64,000 nucleotides of DNA, taken from the NCBI GenBank assembly GCA_004134995.1, contig REGP01000003.1, forward strand, positions 310,001 through 374,000, given 5' to 3'. Of the stretch, positions 1 to 7,195 are shown piece by piece (the stretch's first letter is position 1; each line of letters opens with the position of its first letter). Source of the DNA: Oxalobacteraceae bacterium CAVE-383 (GTDB lineage Bacteria; Pseudomonadota; Gammaproteobacteria; Burkholderiales; Burkholderiaceae_D). The notes under the pieces were generated by a model that did no database searches, was not told the origin of the DNA, and saw only the letters and a program-made list of their open reading frames with translations. The position numbers and the translations under genes were made by a program.

Positions 1-873
1 AAGATACTGACCGCTAGCACCGAATTCATCCTGCGCATATTGGGGCTGCATCACAAGAAGGACGATTCGGTGACCGAAGAGGAAATCGCCGGGCTGTTCC
101 GCGAGGGCACCGACGCCGGCCTGTTCGAAAAGACCGAGCACGATATCGTCTCGCGCGCGCTGCGGCTGGACGACCAGCGCGTGGCGGCCCTGATGACGCC
201 GCGCATGGATGTGCATTTCATCGATATCGAAGACAGCATCGAGGTCAATCTGGCCAAGATCGCCGACAGTTCGTATAACCGCTTCCCGGTCTGCAAGGGC
301 GATATTTCGCACATCATCGGGATCGTGCATGCCGGCATGCTGTTCGAGCAGACCATCCGCAGCCGTTCGATTTCCACCATCGACATCGCCGCGGCGACCC
401 GGCCGCCGCTGTTCGTGCCGGAAACCATCAGCGCGATGCAATTGCTGGAAACGCTCAAGAAGAATCGCGCCGAGCTGGCGCTGGTGATCGACGAATACGG
501 CGAAATCGAAGGCATCGTGACCTTGAGCGATGTGCTGGGCGCGCTGGTCGGCGATGTGTCGGTGATCAATGAGGATTACGAGGACGATGTGGTGCGGCGC
601 GAAGACGGTTCGTGGCTGATCGACGGCGGCGTGACCTTCGATCGTTTCCGCGAGCTGCTGAACACCCAGGTGCGCTTCCCGGAGGAAACCTCGGGCACGT
701 ATCACACGCTGGCCGGATTCGTGATGACCTTCCTTGGCCATATTCCGCAGATATCGGAACACTTCGAGTGGGAAGGCTTCCGCATCGAGGTGGTCGACAT
801 GGACCGCAACCGGATCGACCGGCTGCTGGTCACCGCGCTGGAAGAGAAGCCGGCGGAGGATGAGCTGGACTGA
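1..873 (+). CDS. HlyC/CorC family CBS-domain protein (5' truncated by window)
   Basis: This is the C-terminal 290 residues of a CorC/hemolysin-type protein. The frame is open to base 1 and reads KILTASTEFILRILG before the first internal TTG at 40, so the true start and most of the DUF21 membrane domain lie upstream. Two CBS repeats occupy roughly residues 65-190 (LMTPR, then VIDEYGEIEGIVTLSDVL). A CorC_HlyC accessory domain follows to the end (WLIDGGVTFDRF, TLAGFVM). Family members are inner-membrane proteins tied to magnesium/cobalt export or tolerance; the substrate cannot be read here. Repeat copy A begins 28 bases after the stop, between this gene and a convergent one. Confidence 0.9.
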   Translation, partial: KILTASTEFILRILGLHHKKDDSVTEEEIAGLFREGTDAGLFEKTEHDIVSRALRLDDQRVAALMTPRMDVHFIDIEDSIEVNLAKIADSSYNRFPVCKGDISHIIGIVHAGMLFEQTIRSRSISTIDIAAATRPPLFVPETISAMQLLETLKKNRAELALVIDEYGEIEGIVTLSDVLGALVGDVSVINEDYEDDVVRREDGSWLIDGGVTFDRFRELLNTQVRFPEETSGTYHTLAGFVMTFLGHIPQISEHFEWEGFRIEVVDMDRNRIDRLLVTALEEKPAEDELD

Positions 874-901: not shown

Positions 902-1053
902 GACGCCGTCAGTCAAGGCGGCGTCAGCCAAGGGGCGAAGGGGTGTTGTACTTCGTTCGTGTCCTCCGGGGGCCTGCGGCCCCCTCCCCCTTTACCTCAC
1001 TGCGCACAACACCCCTTCGCCCCTTGGCCGCCGCCGCCTTGACTGAACGGCGT
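902..1053 (+). repeat. Long hairpin repeat, copy A
   Basis: A core at 945-1010 (GTTGTACTTCGTTCG... to ...CGCACAAC) is flanked by two arms that are near-perfect reverse complements (902-944 with 1011-1053, a few mismatches around 925-930). Inside the core a second hairpin, GGGGGCCTGCGGCCCCC, lies at about 968-984. The core matches copies B and C almost base for base, but the arms do not. The element fills the gap between two convergent genes and could act as a bidirectional terminator. Spurious short reading frames across it should not be annotated as genes. Confidence 0.85.
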
Positions 1054-1059
1054 GCGGGG

Positions 1060-1761
1060 CTATTTGAACGTGATCAGGTCGCTGCGGCTCAGCGTCGCCT
1101 TTTTATCGGCCAGCGGGGTGTTGTCCGAATTATAGAATCCGGGCTGGTTCAGCAACTGATAACGCGCCAGCACGGTATTGATCGCCTTCGGGCTGGACAG
1201 TCCGTCTTCCGCGATCACGGAAGTGAATCCCCTGGTATTGGCATGGAACGACGTGTACATCACCGCGCCGTTGGCCGCGCTGCCGACCACCACCACGGTG
1301 GCAATCTTGCGCTTCTTCAGTTGTTCTTCCAGATCGGTGCCGACGAATTTGTTGGCGCGCGCCACGACCACCGGCTCGCCGCTGCGCGGCGCGACTTCGG
1401 CCAGCGTGGGGATGGCGCCGTCGGCATTGGCGGTGCTCGAATACAGGACCGGGACCTTGGCGGCGCGGGCCTTGTTAAGCAGCGCGGAGATGGCCGGCAG
1501 GGTGGCGGTGCATGCGGGATTCGGGCGGCATACCACGTCGTTGATATCGAGGATCAGCAGGGCGGTGCTGCCGGCGTCGAGCGTGACGGGAACCGGCGCG
1601 GGAATGGCCGGCAGGGTGTTGGCCGATTGCATGGCCGCCGGGTCGCCGGCGCAGGCGCTCAAGCTTAGCGCCATGGCGGCGGCCAGTCCGGCCGGCGCAA
1701 ATGCGCGGGCCCGCTGCATGATGGTTTGGGCTTTCTGCTGCACAGTAGTGCTCTTGTTCAT
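1060..1761 (-). CDS. Isochorismatase-like lipoprotein lacking the catalytic cysteine
   Basis: A 233-residue protein with a lipoprotein signal: a hydrophobic stretch at about residues 24-37 ends in the lipobox LSAC. The rest is the isochorismatase/cysteine-hydrolase fold. It has the catalytic Asp in LLILDIND and the Lys in ANKFVGTDLEEQL. Where active members have G-x-x-T-x-x-C-V this one reads GSAANGAV, so the nucleophilic Cys is Ala. Its start overlaps the cbtA stop by 4 bases, making it the last gene of the riboswitch-controlled cbtBA unit. Hydrolase activity is therefore doubtful; a binding or structural role in the envelope is possible. Function unknown. Confidence 0.8.
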   Translation of the reverse strand: MNKSTTVQQKAQTIMQRARAFAPAGLAAAMALSLSACAGDPAAMQSANTLPAIPAPVPVTLDAGSTALLILDINDVVCRPNPACTATLPAISALLNKARAAKVPVLYSSTANADGAIPTLAEVAPRSGEPVVVARANKFVGTDLEEQLKKRKIATVVVVGSAANGAVMYTSFHANTRGFTSVIAEDGLSSPKAINTVLARYQLLNQPGFYNSDNTPLADKKATLSRSDLITFK

Positions 1762-2540
1762 GTTCTTGCCTCTTGGTTAAGATGCCGGTATTGGCGCGTT
1801 TCAAGCCGTTCGGCCAATGCGCCGAACAGTAATCCGATGGTGCTCCACATGATGGCCTGCATGCCGATGGCCGCCATGCGGAATTTCCACAATAGCGCCG
1901 CCGGGAACGCCGCCGGCACTTCATTGATTGCCGGCAGCGCGATCTGCACCGCCGCTATGATAGCCACAAATATGCCGGCGGCGAGAATCGAGCCGTTCCA
2001 GGCGCCGAACCTGGCCATCGCATGGCGGCGCGCCTTCAGTGAAAACACGGCGGCGGCGATCGAAATGGCGATCATGAGGAAGAACAGACCGGTGCGATAG
2101 CCGATAGTTTCGGGATCGCCGATCGAAGGCGGATTGGCCGGATATTTCAGGTTCGGCACGATGACGATGGCGATGAAGGCCGCCAGCGCCAGCCAGGCCG
2201 ACAAGGCGCGTGCGCTGAAGCTGCCGGCGCGGCCGTAGGCATAGGCATAGACCAGCGCGAACAGGCCGCCGATGGCGGCGCTATAGACCGCGACGCCGGT
2301 AAACAGGCCCAGGCCGGCCTGGGTGGCGCGGCTGACCAGTTCTTCTTCGTGTTCATGTTCGTGAGCGGCGCCGGCCGGCGCATCCGCGTGTTCGTGCTGC
2401 GCGTGGTCCTCGGCCATTTTTTCTTCGAACGAAATGGCCTGGTCGACCGACGGCTCGCCGACGATTCTGGCAAAGCCGAATGTGAGCAGCCCTGCAACGA
2501 TGCCCGCGAGCATGCCGCGGGCCAGTAGTTTGCCTACCAT
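1758..2540 (-). CDS. cbtA: CbtA family predicted cobalt transporter membrane subunit
   Basis: A 260-residue integral membrane protein with about five hydrophobic segments (near residues 9-27, 75-98, 108-127, 150-168, 184-204, 225-243). Between the first two lies a His/Glu-rich loop, residues about 45-67 (HAQHEHAD, HEHEHEEE), a plausible metal-binding site. CbtA with the small CbtB is a cobalt-uptake system typically controlled by B12 riboswitches, and one lies upstream of cbtB here. It sits 72 bases after cbtB and overlaps the following isochorismatase-like gene by 4 bases. Family call is by pattern; cobalt specificity is inferred from family and riboswitch. Confidence 0.85.
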   Translation of the reverse strand: MVGKLLARGMLAGIVAGLLTFGFARIVGEPSVDQAISFEEKMAEDHAQHEHADAPAGAAHEHEHEEELVSRATQAGLGLFTGVAVYSAAIGGLFALVYAYAYGRAGSFSARALSAWLALAAFIAIVIVPNLKYPANPPSIGDPETIGYRTGLFFLMIAISIAAAVFSLKARRHAMARFGAWNGSILAAGIFVAIIAAVQIALPAINEVPAAFPAALLWKFRMAAIGMQAIMWSTIGLLFGALAERLETRQYRHLNQEART

Positions 2541-2612
2541 GGTGTTCCGATCAGTGATGTATTGTTGTTAAAGCAACAGCCGGGCGCCCGGTACAGGCGT
2601 CCGGGAGCTTGC

Positions 2613-2840
2613 TTAATGGCAGGGGAAGCCGAGCAGGTGGCGGCCGTCGTGCACGAATTCATGCACATACATGCCGGAGATCAGCGAGGTGGCGCCCTGT
2701 TCGGCGCCGACGAAATAAATCGCCAGCAACAGAAGCAGGCCGCCGAAGACGACCCATGGCAGCAATTCGCCGGCAGGGATAGGAACGGGAACAGGAATCG
2801 GCGCCGTATCGGCGGCGGGATTGAAGGCGGTAGTGGCCAT
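2613..2840 (-). CDS. cbtB: CbtB family cobalt transporter subunit
   Basis: A 75-residue protein starting at the ATG at 2840, preceded by GGAG about 8 bases upstream; a longer frame without a ribosome site is rejected. It has a Pro-rich N-terminus, one membrane segment at about residues 27-46 and the CbtB C-terminus with clustered histidines (HEFVHDGRHLLGFPCH), likely cobalt ligands. It is the first gene after the cobalamin riboswitch and is followed by cbtA. CbtB is normally 60-75 residues, so the length fits. Confidence 0.9.
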   Translation of the reverse strand: MATTAFNPAADTAPIPVPVPIPAGELLPWVVFGGLLLLLAIYFVGAEQGATSLISGMYVHEFVHDGRHLLGFPCH

Positions 2841-2899
2841 TGCGGATCTCCAGGGGTTGCGCGCCCCGTTAAATGAGTCGATTAAACGAATTAGCTGAA

Positions 2900-3015
2900 T
2901 ATTTGCTGCATCAATCGGAAGCAGCGCCGACCTGGCTTTCGATTGGTTCCCGAATCGATTACAGTGGCGCGACCGCGCCGGATTCGCACCGGCTTCCACG
3001 CTGTTCTTCCGCATT
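2900..3015 (-). promoter_or_regulatory. Cobalamin (B12) riboswitch upstream of cbtBA
   Basis: Read on the minus strand, 5' to 3', the segment contains GGAAGCCGGTGCGAATCCGG, then GCGCCACTGTAATCG, then the B12-box-like AAGCCAGGTCGGCGC at about 2923-2939. These follow the order and spacing of the cobalamin riboswitch core (GGTGnnAATCC, ACTGT, AGCCAGG-type box). It ends about 60 bases before the cbtB start. A TATAAT at 3026-3031 on this strand is a candidate -10 without a clear -35. High B12 is expected to switch off cbtBA and the attached lipoprotein gene. Confidence 0.85.
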
Positions 3016-3077
3016 TGATTGCCTGATTATAATGCGATGTAAGCGAATAGCGTTTTATTTTCCTGAAAGGAAGCGGA

Positions 3078-3710
3078 ATGACTATCAGGCTATTGTTGGT
3101 CGCCCATGCCGCCACGGCGGCAATGCGCAGCGGCCGGTTTCCCGGCGATGCGCCGCGCGACGCCGTCGACTTGCGCAGGGCGGGCGATCAGGCCGCGCTG
3201 GCGGCGCTGCGGGAACGCTTGCCGGCGGCAGGCGAGGCGGCCGCGTTATGCAGTCCGGCTGCCTGCGCGCGCGATACCGCGGCGGCGCTGGGCTTGCCGG
3301 CGCAGGAGGAAGCCGGCCTGGCCGATATGGATTACGGACGATGGCAAGGCCGGCGGCTGGACGATTTCGGCGTGGACGAGGCAGCGCAACTGGCGCAGTG
3401 GAGCCGCGATCCGCGCGCGGCGCCGCATGGCGGCGAATCGTTCGAGGCGGTGCTGGCGCGGGTCGGCGCATGGCTGGATGGCCTGGACCGGATCGATATG
3501 CCAAGCGGCATCATTGGCGCCGCCGGGCGCGTCGTGATCGCCGTCACCCACGCGCCGGTGATCCGGGCCGCCGCGATTCATGCATTGAATGCGCCGCCGG
3601 CTTCCTTCGCGCGGATCGAAGTCGCGCCGTTATCGGTGGTTGAATTGCGGCGTGCGGGCAGAGTCGGGGGCTGGCGCTGGTGGACCGGGGCCGTGGACGG
3701 CCGGTTATAG
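3078..3710 (+). CDS. Histidine phosphatase family protein (CobC-like), altered RHG motif
   Basis: A 210-residue phosphoglycerate-mutase-fold protein. The N-terminal RHG box reads AHA (LLVAHAATAAMRSG): the catalytic His is kept, but the phosphate-binding Arg and the Gly are replaced. The later family marks are present: ARDTAAAL (second Arg), GGESFEAVLARV (acid residue) and VTHAPVIR (second His). It is divergent from cbtBA, with the cobalamin riboswitch in the shared 240-base gap, which suggests a role near cobalamin metabolism such as alpha-ribazole phosphatase. That role is inference, and the missing Arg may reduce or change activity. The start ATG follows AAAGGAAGCGGA. Confidence 0.75.
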   Translation: MTIRLLLVAHAATAAMRSGRFPGDAPRDAVDLRRAGDQAALAALRERLPAAGEAAALCSPAACARDTAAALGLPAQEEAGLADMDYGRWQGRRLDDFGVDEAAQLAQWSRDPRAAPHGGESFEAVLARVGAWLDGLDRIDMPSGIIGAAGRVVIAVTHAPVIRAAAIHALNAPPASFARIEVAPLSVVELRRAGRVGGWRWWTGAVDGRL

Positions 3711-3724
3711 CGTTGGAGAGTTAT

Positions 3725-3857
3725 GGAAGGCTGTTGCCAAATGCGGTGAGGCCGGGTGTTGTGCGAAGTGAGGTAAAGGGGGAGACGGCCGCAGGCCGGC
3801 GGAGGACACGAACGCAGTACAACGCCCGGCCTCACCGCATTTGGCAACAGCCTTTCA
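3725..3857 (-). repeat. Long hairpin repeat, copy B (inverted orientation)
   Basis: The core at 3758-3823 is the reverse complement of the copy A and C cores (GAAGTGAGGTAAAGGGGGAG on the plus strand). Arms 3725-3757 and 3824-3857 are reverse complements over about 33 bases with one or two mismatches (arm begins GGCTGTTGCCAAATGCGG) and have no resemblance to the arms of A or C. It lies between a plus-strand gene end and the stop codon of the convergent response regulator; the outer arm overlaps that stop. Confidence 0.85.
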
Positions 3858-4304
3858 AGCCGCCGCCGCCACGCGGTTCATGAGCGTCCAGTACAGGCTG
3901 GCGTCGGTGATGGTTTTGGTGAATTCGGCCGGATCGATCGGCTTGACCAGGTAGCTGTTGGCGCCCAGCTTGTAGCTGGTGGCGATGTCGCGCTCGTCGC
4001 TGGAGGTGGTGACCATGATCACCGGAATGTGCGAAATGGCGGGATCGGTCTTGATGCGCTTGAGCACTTCATGGCCGCCCATGGTCGGCAGATGCAGATC
4101 GAGCAGCACCATGCGCGGCTGGATAGCGGCGCGGCCGGCGAAATTGCCTTGCCGCAACAGGAAGTCGACTGCCAGATGGCCATCGTTGACCCAGACGATA
4201 TTGGCGTGGAGATTGATTTTTTTCAGTACGCGCCGGGTCAGCTCGGCGATTTCGTCGCTGTCTTCCACAAGCAGGATCTCAACAGTATCTATGGCATTCA
4301 TCAT
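3855..4304 (-). CDS. Single-domain response regulator (Rcp1/CheY-like receiver)
   Basis: A 149-residue protein consisting of one receiver domain with no output domain. The acidic pocket is VEDSDE, the phosphoacceptor is the Asp in LLDLHLP, the switch residues are VTTSSD, and the Lys is in YLVKPID. The enlarged loop after helix 2 (QGNFAGRAAIQPR) is typical of Rcp1-type receivers that partner phytochrome or hybrid kinases. It is 97 bases downstream of the GGDEF/EAL gene on the same strand and may be co-transcribed. No kinase is adjacent. Two ATGs in a row (4304, 4301) leave the start uncertain by one residue. Confidence 0.9.
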   Translation of the reverse strand: MMNAIDTVEILLVEDSDEIAELTRRVLKKINLHANIVWVNDGHLAVDFLLRQGNFAGRAAIQPRMVLLDLHLPTMGGHEVLKRIKTDPAISHIPVIMVTTSSDERDIATSYKLGANSYLVKPIDPAEFTKTITDASLYWTLMNRVAAAA

Positions 4305-4401
4305 CGTTCCCGCTTTCGGTTGAACATCCCATGCCAGTCTGAAAAATGATGCTTGGCGCGTGTTTTTCTCTGATCCGCATATTTTTGTTTATTCTATATG
4401 C

Positions 4402-6252
4402 TCACGCCGCGATGCAAGCTGCTTCCTTGTGATATTTTTTATGCGAGTCCGCGCTCAGCAAGGCTTCGCATTGTTTTCCGGGCGCCGGACGGCTGAAATA
4501 GAAGCCCTGCACCTGGTCGCAGCCATGGGCTTCGAGAAATGCCAGCTGGGTAATGTTTTCGACGCCTTCGGCGATCACTTTCAGTCCGAGGCTGTGCGCC
4601 AGCTGGATCACGGTGCGGGTAATCTCGGCGTCGCCATGATTGACGCCGATGCCGTGCACGAAATTCCTGTCGATCTTCAGCGCATCGAGCGGAAAGTGCT
4701 TCAGGTACAGCAGGCTGGAATAGCCGGTGCCGAAGTCGTCGACCGCGATGCGCAGGCCCATTTCCGAAAATTTCCGCAGTTGCCGGGCGGCGCCGTCGAC
4801 GTCGCGCATCAGGGCGCTTTCGGTAATTTCCAGTTCCAGCAGCGCAGGCGGGATATCGAATTCCGCCAGGCAGGCTTCGATCGCGGGCAACAGCTGGGGC
4901 GATTCGAATTGCCGCGCGGACAGATTGACCGCGACCGGCAGCAGCGCCAGGCCGGCGGCGCGCCAGATGCACAGTTGGCGGCAGGCCTGGCGAATCACCA
5001 TTTCGCCGACCGGCACGATCAGGCCGGTCTGTTCCAGCACGGGGATGAAGTCGGCCGGCGAAATCATGCCGCGGCTTGGATGGTTCCAGCGCAGCAGGGC
5101 TTCGAAGCCGCTGGCCAAATTGGTTTTCAGATCGACCTTGGCCTGGTAGAACAGTTCGAACTGTTCGGCTTCCAGCGCATAAGTCAGATCGCTGGCGATG
5201 CGGGTTTGCTCCAGGATATGGTTGCGCATTTCCAGGCGGAACAGCAGATGATTGTTGCCGCCGTTCTTGGCGGCCAGATGCATCGCGGTGTCGGCATAGC
5301 GCATCAGCACGCACGGCAGGTCGCTGGTGAGGGCCGACAGCGCGGTGCCGATGCTCAGCGTGACGAAAATATTGCGCCCGTCCACAAAGAAAGGCTGCGC
5401 GCATTTGGCGCTGATTTTTGCGATTACGACATCCAGGTCCGCTGCGCGCTCCAGATCCTGCACCACCATCAGGAAATGGTTGCTGTCGCCGCGTCCGATA
5501 AAGTCGTTGGCGTACAGGCAATTGCGCAGGCGTTCGGCGATCTGCAGCAGCAGGGCGCTGCCGACGTCTTCGCCCAGGGTGCAGGTGATGTCTTCGAAGT
5601 TGTCGACATGCAGCGACATCACCGCGAACAGCTGGTCCTGCATGTTGTTGGACGTCATGAATTGCGCCAATTGCCGTTCGAAGCGGGCGCGATCCGGCAG
5701 GACGTCCATGCCGATGTCGTCGATGCGGCCGATGCCCGGCATGCGCATGGCGGGGTTGGCTTCCTGCGGCATTTCGGATTGATACAGCGCCGCGACATGG
5801 CGGCCGAGCTGGCACAGCGTATCGGATTGCTGCGGCGTCAGGCAGCGCGGTTGCCGCCCCGCAATGAAGAAAGCGCCGAGTTTGCCGCCTTTTGCATCGA
5901 GCAGCGGGACGCCGGCGTAAAAACGGAAAGGATCGCCCAGATCGAGCAGGACAGGAGCCGTGGTTGCGGTACCGGCAGGCACGTGGCTGGCCACGTCGAG
6001 CGTGGTGGCGGCGCACAGGCTCAGGTATTTGGCGGCATTTTCGCAATCGGCCTGGCCGAACAGCACATGATGCCTGACGCCGTGCCGGCCATAGACGCTG
6101 ATGCCGGCGATTTCCGCGTCGCACAGCTTGGCGACCGCTTCGGCGACCGAGCGGTAAATGGCGCTGTCGGTACCCGGCAGCACCAGATCGGCTTCGTCAT
6201 GGCCGTCGCAGGTCGAACTGAAAATCGTTAAACCGGTTGAAGCGTTTTTCAT
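4402..6252 (-). CDS. GAF-GGDEF-EAL protein, probable c-di-GMP phosphodiesterase
   Basis: A 616-residue cytoplasmic protein. Residues about 15-165 look like a GAF-type sensor domain. A GGDEF domain follows, with the signature at residues 256-260 reading DSNHF instead of GGDEF, so cyclase activity is unlikely. The EAL domain from about 355 keeps the catalytic set: EAL at 384-386, NLSARQF, ELEITES, DDFGTGYSS, LKIDRNFV, AEGVE and QGFYFSRP. The protein therefore probably degrades cyclic di-GMP, with the GGDEF as a possible GTP-sensing module. It has no membrane segment. Upstream lies repeat copy C; downstream is the single-domain receiver gene. Confidence 0.9.
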   Translation of the reverse strand: MKNASTGLTIFSSTCDGHDEADLVLPGTDSAIYRSVAEAVAKLCDAEIAGISVYGRHGVRHHVLFGQADCENAAKYLSLCAATTLDVASHVPAGTATTAPVLLDLGDPFRFYAGVPLLDAKGGKLGAFFIAGRQPRCLTPQQSDTLCQLGRHVAALYQSEMPQEANPAMRMPGIGRIDDIGMDVLPDRARFERQLAQFMTSNNMQDQLFAVMSLHVDNFEDITCTLGEDVGSALLLQIAERLRNCLYANDFIGRGDSNHFLMVVQDLERAADLDVVIAKISAKCAQPFFVDGRNIFVTLSIGTALSALTSDLPCVLMRYADTAMHLAAKNGGNNHLLFRLEMRNHILEQTRIASDLTYALEAEQFELFYQAKVDLKTNLASGFEALLRWNHPSRGMISPADFIPVLEQTGLIVPVGEMVIRQACRQLCIWRAAGLALLPVAVNLSARQFESPQLLPAIEACLAEFDIPPALLELEITESALMRDVDGAARQLRKFSEMGLRIAVDDFGTGYSSLLYLKHFPLDALKIDRNFVHGIGVNHGDAEITRTVIQLAHSLGLKVIAEGVENITQLAFLEAHGCDQVQGFYFSRPAPGKQCEALLSADSHKKYHKEAACIAA

Positions 6253-6398
6253 GATCTGTTCTCAATCTCTGTTTTTCTGGCATTCGCTGCGAATGGCGAA
6301 CACCGGTTTGCCCCTTGGAAATTGCGAAATGGGTCTGAGTGAACGCTTGAGATGGAGTTTGGCAGGATCAGAAAATTTGAATATAGGAGAATTCCTTA

Positions 6399-6523
6399 GC
6401 AATTTGCAAAATCGGGCGGCGCAGGGCGTTGTACTGCGTTCGTGTCCTCCTGCGGCCTGCGGCCGCATTCCCCCTTTACCTCACTTCGCACAACACCCTG
6501 CGCCGCCCGATTTTGCAAATGCT
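6399..6523 (+). repeat. Long hairpin repeat, copy C
   Basis: The core at 6428-6494 matches copy A (GTTGTACTGCGTTCGTGTCC ... TCCCCCTTTACCTCAC). The inner hairpin is TGCGGCCTGCGGCCGCA, different from copy A but still self-complementary. Outer arms 6399-6427 and 6495-6523 are complementary (TTTGCAAAATCGGGCGGCG) and unrelated to the arms of A and B. It lies 28 bases past the end of the NarL-type regulator gene (minus strand) and opposite in orientation to it. Confidence 0.85.
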
Positions 6524-6550: not shown

Positions 6551-7195
6551 TCAGTCCGAAGTCGTCAAGCCGACCCGTATCGCATAGCGCGTCAGCCCCG
6601 GAACGTCGCGAATCTCCAGCCGCTCCATCAATTGCGCGCGGTGCGTTTCCACGGTTTTGGCGCTGATGCCCAGGCGATAGGCGATTTCCTTGGTATTGCG
6701 GCCTTCGGCGATCATTTGCAGGATCTGGCGCTGCCGCGGCGTCAACTGATCGATGGTGGCGCCGCCCTCGGCTGCGCGTTTCATGTACTGATTGACGCTT
6801 TCACGCGAAATATGCGAATCCAGATAGGAGTCGCCCTGCATGATCTGGCGTATCGCGCGCTCCAGTTCCGAGCTGGCGGAATCCTTCAGCAGATAGCCGT
6901 TGGCGCCCGCATTGAGCGCCTGCATCACATATTCTTCGCTGCCGTACATGGACAGCATCAGCATTTTCATTTTGGGCCGCTGCTGCTGGAAGCGGCGCGC
7001 GGCCTCCAGCCCGTTCATCCCCTTCATCGCGATATCGAGCACGGCAACGTCCGGGTTGTGCAGTTCGGCCAGTTTCAGCGCTTCCTCGCCGTCCGATGCC
7101 TCGGCCACCACCTCCATGCCCAGCACCGCGCCCAGCAGCGCGCGCACGCCGCTGCGCACCAGCAAATGATCGTCGGCCAGCAGTATGCGTATCAT
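6551..7195 (-). CDS. NarL/FixJ-type response regulator (LuxR HTH)
   Basis: A 214-residue regulator. The N-terminal receiver domain has the acidic pair in LLADDHLL, the phosphoacceptor Asp in VAVLDIAMKGMNG and the Lys in YLLKDSAS. The C-terminal LuxR-type helix-turn-helix at about residues 145-200 reads LTPRQRQILQ, NTKEIAYRLGISAKTVETHR. The ATG at 7195 follows GGGGAACGCC. It is the third gene of an operon with the receiver-PAS-kinase (29 bases upstream) and the CHASE3 kinase, and is probably the DNA-binding output of that pathway. Targets are unknown. Confidence 0.93.
   Translation of the reverse strand: MIRILLADDHLLVRSGVRALLGAVLGMEVVAEASDGEEALKLAELHNPDVAVLDIAMKGMNGLEAARRFQQQRPKMKMLMLSMYGSEEYVMQALNAGANGYLLKDSASSELERAIRQIMQGDSYLDSHISRESVNQYMKRAAEGGATIDQLTPRQRQILQMIAEGRNTKEIAYRLGISAKTVETHRAQLMERLEIRDVPGLTRYAIRVGLTTSD

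Follow-up and report, generated by a model that had tools for sequence, protein, structure and literature searches.

The hairpin unit of REP and REPIN sequences is 20-40 bp long and carries a GTAG or CGTC tag at one end (PMC3733652). Palindromic miniature inverted-repeat transposable elements (MITEs) can act on mRNA when they are transcribed, as a review describes (PMC10969869), and template switching has been proposed for RNA stems, where it predicts double changes made in one step, extension of the stem and copied insertions (PMC8794818). Here we describe a hairpin element with a conserved centre that lies three times in a 64,000-nt stretch of the genome of Oxalobacteraceae bacterium CAVE-383 (contig REGP01000003.1, positions 310,001 to 374,000; hereafter the window). 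The explanation that we propose has, in our judgement, an even chance of being right in its main lines: the element would be a structured, mobile RNA hairpin of transcript 3′ ends and intercistronic gaps, whose arms are homogenised by template switching.

The element resembles REP, BIME and REPIN sequences (PMC3733652, PMC2817692, PMC3116915) in being a dispersed, extragenic, high-copy hairpin that lies between genes or near gene ends, is patchy among relatives and sometimes forms inverted pairs. In contrast to them, it is far longer than their unit (119-146 nt in the window copies), its loop and not its stem is conserved, it recurs at corresponding operon sites in several genera of Burkholderiales, and it has no exclusive Y1 transposase partner. 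The GTAG or CGTC tag was not noticed as conserved in a listing of 89 copies, on which no formal test was made. With palindromic MITEs such as Correia and ERIC the element shares a long, near-palindromic form and an outer sequence common within subfamilies, whereas its conserved part is the centre, its arms are changeable, and no target duplication or parent transposon has been established. No description of this element was found within the literature searched; word searches found no mention of five Betaproteobacterial names in a REP survey (PMC12306157) and nothing fitting in a paper on Herbaspirillum small RNAs (PMC6337395).

Results

The three copies occupy window positions 905..1050 (copy A, RNA strand minus), 3724..3857 (copy B, RNA strand plus) and 6402..6520 (copy C, RNA strand minus). 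A covariance model built from 49 training rows, which include copies A (L001) and C (L031) and exclude copy B, scored them at 108.6 bits (E 1.5e-23), 106.1 bits (E 5.9e-23) and 100.5 bits (E 1.2e-21), respectively, and at E<=1 recovered these three alone. Two half-core patterns (<=3 mismatches) located the same copies; each matched three times in the 64 kb, where shuffled sequence would give 0.08 and 0.00 matches. An earlier note, made from the letters of the window, had placed three copies here and none in the rest, and both statements were borne out. In copy A the outer arms (905-949 and 1006-1050) include the bounding GTTGT (945-949) and ACAAC (1006-1010), and the inner hairpin lies at 968-984; the core lies between arms 3724-3762 and 3819-3857 in copy B and between 6402-6432 and 6490-6520 in copy C. 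The core reads GTTGTACTkCGTTCGTGTCCyCC-hairpin-...CCyCCTTTACCTCACTkCGCACAAC. Ungapped arms of 41, 39 and 31 nt are 95, 95 and 97% self-complementary within their copies, and the halves of the inner hairpin vary in step between copies, both as the note had it. Its claim that the outer arms are unrelated between copies was overstated: the arms of 88 copies form two related subfamilies (copy A in G, copies B and C in T), and an inverted match of 73 nt (82%) covers one arm each of copies B and C. The folding energy of the RNA strand is 10-13 standard deviations below that of shuffles (z -10.4 to -13.0), and this strand gives the more stable fold in all three copies.

Searched with a 21-base half-core (<=2 mismatches), the 4.1-Mb genome of the same bacterium (own genome) gave 89 matches, 86 of them outside the window; a reversed control pattern gave none. 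The core is therefore not a local duplication, and it is near certain that the sites belong to a real element family. The count misses truncated copies such as L068, a half element duplicated head-to-tail next to a whole copy, perhaps by slippage or template switching. Both arms are present in 88 of the 89 extracted copies, the remaining one being cut by a contig end, and the median length of pairing is 36 nt per side. In 88/88 the copy's own right arm pairs better than the right arm of one randomly drawn copy (mean score 59 vs 18). Class T comprises 51 copies with consensus arm GAGGCTGTTGCAAAATCAGGCGAGGCGGGGCG and class G 37 copies with consensus arm CAAGGCGCCGTCAGGCAGGGCGCGAAGGGGCG; the class is defined by one core base, so that a few copies, such as L002, have the arms of the other class. 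Thus related within two subfamilies, by outer sequence of the GAGGCTGTTGCAAAAT or GTTCAGTCAAGGCGCC type, the arms are strongly diverged between copies and not conserved across the genome. Neither of the two findings that the note had named as refuting its view was thus obtained outright. The element had been called the opposite of a MITE, which is right as to its conserved centre and changeable arms; the outer arm sequence shared within a subfamily is, on the other hand, what a palindromic mobile element has. Copies number 23-37 per Mb on the smaller contigs C5-C9, about double the density found on C3-C4 (14-16 per Mb). The class T arm was also seen without the core, as a single arm, in another palindromic repeat and in a hairpin with an unrelated loop (L212, L213, L214).

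Covariation was analysed in an alignment of 49 of 62 rows that a script had chosen for diversity from 169 distinct elements. Paired cells made up 93.4% against 64.0% after shuffling, double-change cells numbered 430 against 129, and the covariation of 0.739, against 0.175, was reached in none of 500 shuffles; with slid partners 30.7-44.2% were paired. Stem covariation therefore goes beyond both controls. If neither strand were under a constraint of its own, each would be expected to show as many A.C as G.T mismatches. Read as GTTGT...ACAAC, however, the arms hold 77 A.C against 27 G.T mismatches (p 1e-6, the conserved first C.A pair excluded), and the inner 20 pairs hold 26 against 2. This excess designates the opposite strand as the one whose pairing matters, since A.C reads there as G.U. 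In agreement with this, 67 elements of other Burkholderiales (the named loci described below without those of a Herbaspirillum metagenome-assembled genome (MAG), plus further genomes of the order) hold 145 G.U against 13 A.C when read on the RNA strand.

On that strand a long outer stem leads to a conserved internal loop and a variable apical hairpin. The loop is purine-rich and nearly invariant (5′ strand CGkAGUGAGGUAAAGGrGGA, 3′ strand GGrGGACACGAACGkAG): of the alignment columns, 28 do not vary in the 49 diverse rows and 10 hardly vary, almost all of them within the loop strands, and a tandem G.A/A.G step is present in 49/49. Flanking this step, pairs 30-96 (UA 154, CG 19, AA 7) and 33-93 (GC 167, AU 12, GG 1) vary together. 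These counts come from 180 distinct elements, of which the own genome supplies 82, and the pattern that selected them holds most of the remaining loop positions constant. The GGrGG purine strands have A on exactly one side in 168 of these 180, on both sides in 12 and on neither in 0, and pair 27-99 is a standard pair in just 30/49 rows. A G-quadruplex and a K-turn were considered and set aside, both by eye only, the K-turn because no three-base bulge lies beside the G.A step. At least 105 of the 180 elements have GGAGG in the 5′ loop strand, and such loops hold AAAGGAGG, which we take to be a Shine-Dalgarno-like string. The note's idea of a structured RNA whose loops are conserved and whose stems are free to change is well supported by the covariation, the strand-specific wobble pairs, the covarying loop pairs and the repeated operon-gap placement reported below; very probably, then, the element works as RNA on the named strand.

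None of the 89 copies lies inside a gene called in the own genome with a self-trained gene caller. They are found between convergent genes (45), in tandem contexts with the RNA in sense (19) or antisense (15), between divergent genes (9) and at a contig end (1). A facing gene 3′ end lies within 40 nt in 76/80 copies and within 15 nt in 60/80 (median 4 nt), against 5/43 with a facing 5′ end within 40 nt; the location beside gene 3′ ends that had been noted for the window copies is true of all three.

The core occurs across Burkholderiales, often between the genes of an operon. Among named genomes there are at least 70 stretches with the element, and the carriers among the matches listed are Rhodoferax, Hydrogenophaga, Variovorax, Ramlibacter, Limnohabitans, Comamonas, Methylibium and the MAG, labelled Herbaspirillum sp. 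RYN_592. Inside the window's genus a query containing the element matched it in 2/34 genomes, the own one and G017 (top 11 candidates scored per genome), and compared rows of G017 and the MAG have identical flanks (L047/L117, L037/L167). Another genus search agrees with this: it matched 5/41 genomes, three of them (G024, G027, G039) by 23-27 nt alone, which we take as chance. Over the order, the covariance model found the element in at least 17/399 genomes, the own genome included; this is a lower bound, as 10 candidates per genome were scanned with strict filters. One copy lies on a Burkholderia anthina plasmid, between semialdehyde dehydrogenase and hydrolase genes of a meta-cleavage operon, and two Variovorax plasmid matches are in records without gene annotation. 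There was no match to copy C in plasmids and phages (blastn), to two patterns in viral contigs or to a Hydrogenophaga copy in phages.

In the named loci of other genomes, the Herbaspirillum MAG included, 0/74 elements lie inside called genes; 22 are tandem with the RNA in sense, 21 convergent, 11 tandem antisense, 4 divergent and 16 at contig ends. Clustering of the neighbours placed an element in the gap between boxB- and boxA-type genes in ten named loci, between genes for an ABC binding protein and permease in five, and between a RuBisCO small-subunit-type gene and an AAA ATPase gene in four; in three it faces the end of an nth-type gene. These names rest on one representative each: scores exceed the curated cut-offs for boxC, boxB, boxA, RuBisCO large subunit and nth but stay below them for the ABC proteins and the AAA ATPase, and the RuBisCO small subunit, without a match, is named by position. 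We take the ATPase at the RuBisCO loci to be CbbQ-like. The distance to the upstream gene is greater in the named loci (often 100-250 nt) than in the own genome. It is somewhat probable that the element acts in cis at 3′ ends and between operon genes.

Between convergent genes of the own genome, a T-tract terminator was present in 3/44 gaps with the element and in 9/21 without it (Fisher p 0.001), compared with 3/380 shuffled gaps. These gaps come from fetched stretches, with 14 extra 20-kb stretches at round coordinates that hold no copy. Because the element gaps mostly lack a T-tract, the element itself is not an intrinsic terminator. It shares the location of bidirectional intrinsic terminators, between convergent genes, and differs from them in this T-tract shortage, in its conserved internal loop and in being one dispersed family rather than unrelated hairpins. 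One gap of this kind, between aroG- and yajQ-like genes (names by reading), holds the element in the own genome. Of 25 such loci in other members of the genus, 6 were usable, 4 had spacers >700 nt, 12 were unusable and 3 lacked the second gene; 5/6 usable short spacers hold a hairpin of the AAAAACGCC...GGCGTTTTT type, an ordinary bidirectional terminator, and the sixth (L225) holds a hairpin without a T-tract. In G017 this gap has no element and an ordinary terminator of that type (L249). An earlier count on relatives' loci gave 21/22 with a terminator, mostly at the same site. The idea of a strong genome-wide loss of terminators was dropped, element-free genomes scoring as low as carriers.

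The way in which the two arms change was compared in those copies whose first pairs are free of gaps (72 of 88), which gave 65 nearest-neighbour pairs. Between nearest neighbours there are 361 coordinated double changes (222 transversions and 139 transitions), 51 single changes and 21 of other kinds. Copies that differ at <=3 of 26 pairs (17 pairs of copies) have 41 double and 7 single changes, with 24 transversion-type and 17 transition-type doubles. In the other Burkholderiales, by comparison, elements differing at 1-3 positions have 27 double, 89 single and 16 other changes, the doubles being 21 transitions and 6 transversions. Insertions and deletions relative to the subfamily consensus were scored as mirrored in the two arms of 21/88 copies and as absent from 51, although some of these scores are alignment artefacts in strongly diverged arms. 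By eye, both arms of L037/L167 contain an insertion of ~26 nt similar to half a core. The earlier note had considered an element that inverts and copies its flank on insertion; of this, the coordinated changes and mirrored indels bear out the underlying notion that one arm templates the other, and not the copying at insertion. On balance, this pattern suggests that templating keeps the arms complementary in the own genome. The coordinated changes and mirrored insertions agree with the template-switch proposal (PMC8794818), and here 88 natural copies in one genome are open to comparison.

The readings that compete with our explanation are not mutually exclusive, and the probabilities that we attach to them are not shares of a whole. 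Foremost is selection on the RNA fold alone, by which single mutations would pass through G-U or mismatched intermediates and be compensated one by one. It accounts for the strand-specific wobble bias, for the ordinary compensation in other Burkholderiales and for the mostly single changes in G017. No near-identical copies exist in the own genome, where the closest differ at 2 of 26 pairs; since the nearest copies are thus not recent, selection on an old copy set is a serious rival: an excess of double over single differences is also expected of old copies at equilibrium. Against it, transversion doubles exceed transitions even at close range in the own genome, G-U occupies just 26/1760 inner-stem cells, and mirrored indels occur in 21/88 copies. 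We regard selection alone as possible, though doubtful.

Copy number, patchy distribution, shared outer arm sequence and inverted pairs together suggest a mobile hairpin, and non-autonomous mobility is likely on these grounds. Among 205 matches, 12 close element pairs were listed, 11 with RNA strands pointing apart; several are the same place fetched twice, and by reading 8 are distinct. Inverted pairs 91-196 nt apart were seen at L176, L153, L187, L206, L039, L045, L047 and L167, with more in the order-wide scan. At the site of copy A, G017 (L248) has what reads by eye as a truncated element with a different arm, which the covariance model did not match. By eye, no target-site duplication was noticed in a few listings, which were not tested systematically. 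A search of the own genome with an insertion-sequence end pattern, of one end type, matched 4 sites, about as many as its reversed control (3); no gene lay between paired ends, and no autonomous parent emerged. TAATGCCGTTCAGTTAAGG may resemble the IS4 end. No RAYT partner came to light, as Y1 transposases, counted with all their types together, show no association with element presence.

These features would also fit DNA as the unit of selection, that is, a single-stranded hairpin or cruciform recognised by a transposase or recombinase (REPIN, IS200/IS605 or attC-like), with any RNA role incidental; high copy number, patchiness, the shared outer arm sequence and the inverted pairs all speak for it. 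However, a cis RNA role is indicated by the recurrence of the element in corresponding operon gaps of several genera, by its location at 3′ ends and by the scarcity of terminators in the gaps that hold it, and no partner enzyme was found, which makes this alternative unlikely. An attC site was rejected, by eye only, no attC boxes being seen.

Somewhat less likely again is that the core inserts into the loop of pre-existing hairpins, such as terminators, or copies one flank inverted, so that the arms would be host DNA of each locus. Arm ends do run into the neighbouring gene end in 25/80 copies, the insertion of L037/L167 is mirrored, and some arms of the second core described below look unique and are perfect (36/36 in L299). 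However, the arms are related within subfamilies, and neither arm was seen by eye at the aroG-yajQ spacers or at the CorC site of G016, spacers that are too diverged to settle the matter. Very improbable, finally, is a role in making or controlling the 3′ end as a self-cleaving ribozyme or a ligand-sensing RNA, with the loop as active site: near-invariant loop columns between variable stems in mRNA 3′ regions would suit it, but Rfam has no known class that matches at the elements, in the window at gathering scores. Long-hairpin miRNA models hit under relaxed settings (window copies and eight loci) were far below thresholds and were rejected as generic.

The class G arm also surrounds an apparently different core at L216. 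Searching the own genome with this second core gave 16 rows representing 15 places, one reverse self-match being set aside; G017 had none, and plasmids searched with it gave no match. Its centre reads CCTCyTCTCGGCTTCAAACGTTCGTCGrAG (L289-L302, for example C5:308548, 1.4 kb left of the window). At 14 of the 15 places (L303, with no recognisable centre, was left out) the arms have 414 Watson-Crick and 43 other positions, a flattering figure, as the best-pairing offset was chosen. A facing gene 3′ end lies within 40 nt in 12/14. The existence of a second core with the same architecture indicates that a conserved centre with changeable, self-complementary arms is not peculiar to a single sequence. 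Both cores have ACGAACG and a purine tract on the same strand and are possibly permuted relatives. In Rfam the second-core elements again hit only long-hairpin miRNA models far below thresholds, rejected as generic.

The genes next to the window copies were named from reading their translations and not by family search. Copy A lies between convergent genes: a CBS-domain, CorC-like gene (1..873, +) ends 31 nt before its left arm, and an isochorismatase-like gene (1060..1761, -) faces it with its 3′ end from the other side. Copy B is also in a convergent context, 13 nt after the end of a histidine-phosphatase-like gene (3078..3710, +), and its right arm contains the stop codon of a response-regulator-like gene (3855..4304, -). 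Copy C, in a tandem context, is faced by the 3′ end of a LuxR-type response-regulator-like gene (6551..7195, -), with the 5′ end of a gene at 4402-6252 (-) on its other side. An adenosylcobalamin (AdoCbl) riboswitch (2898-3024, -, 53.9 bits) lies between copies A and B.

Discussion

We propose that the element is transcribed from one strand as a structured RNA hairpin and acts in cis, both where transcripts end and in the gaps between operon genes. Its stem would block 3′-to-5′ exonucleases, aid the end of transcription, or both, so that the upstream message is stabilised or insulated, and the conserved loop would be a putative protein-binding site. Copy number, patchiness and the outer sequence that its arms share suggest that the element has spread as a non-autonomous mobile hairpin to ~90 sites in this lineage, where it would substitute for ordinary intrinsic terminators between convergent genes. 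The pattern of change suggests that the arms remain complementary mainly because one templates the other at replication, through template switching or repair of the hairpin; selection for the RNA fold would act in addition.

Several observations weigh against this explanation. Where the flanking genes run in tandem, the RNA is in sense to the upstream gene at 19 sites and antisense to it at 15, a pattern that suits a two-sided hairpin better than a strand-specific signal. The absence of a T-tract from most element gaps is at odds with a terminator role of the ordinary kind, and T-tract terminators are far from universal in gaps without the element (3/11 and 4/9 in two relatives). Terminator motifs are weakly low in two carriers, at 2.7 and 3.0 per Mb, and element-free genomes have 2.6 (G001), 2.75 (G024) and, in the incomplete G430, 0.4. 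Templating is not general, because single changes predominate between similar copies among the 24 elements of G017 and the Herbaspirillum MAG (40, against 10 double and 2 other), and indels are unequal between the arms of 16/88 own-genome copies. The second core has no clear wobble asymmetry (A.C 12, G.T 8). As to mobility, no transposase or target duplication was tied to the element, and Y1 transposases (PF01797, a count in which the RAYT type is not separated from other Y1 enzymes) are present in 19/20 genomes, with and without the element, the one without, G211, being a carrier.

A wider conclusion can be put forward only tentatively, namely that these elements represent a new class of mobile RNA 3′-end modules: an old cis RNA of Burkholderiales would have been amplified and have replaced intrinsic terminators at many sites of one genome, its stems being templated, with at least two cores carried on self-copying arms and a non-canonical internal loop that binds protein or is catalytic.

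If our explanation is true, the element is a new family of dispersed 3′-end RNA elements with a nearly invariant loop that awaits its binding partner, and one that occupies the same operon gaps (benzoyl-CoA, RuBisCO, sugar uptake) in several genera. Its copies would also form a natural replicate set for asking whether stem pairing is kept by stepwise compensation or by template switching, a question made testable by the different behaviour of one element family in the own genome and in other Burkholderiales.

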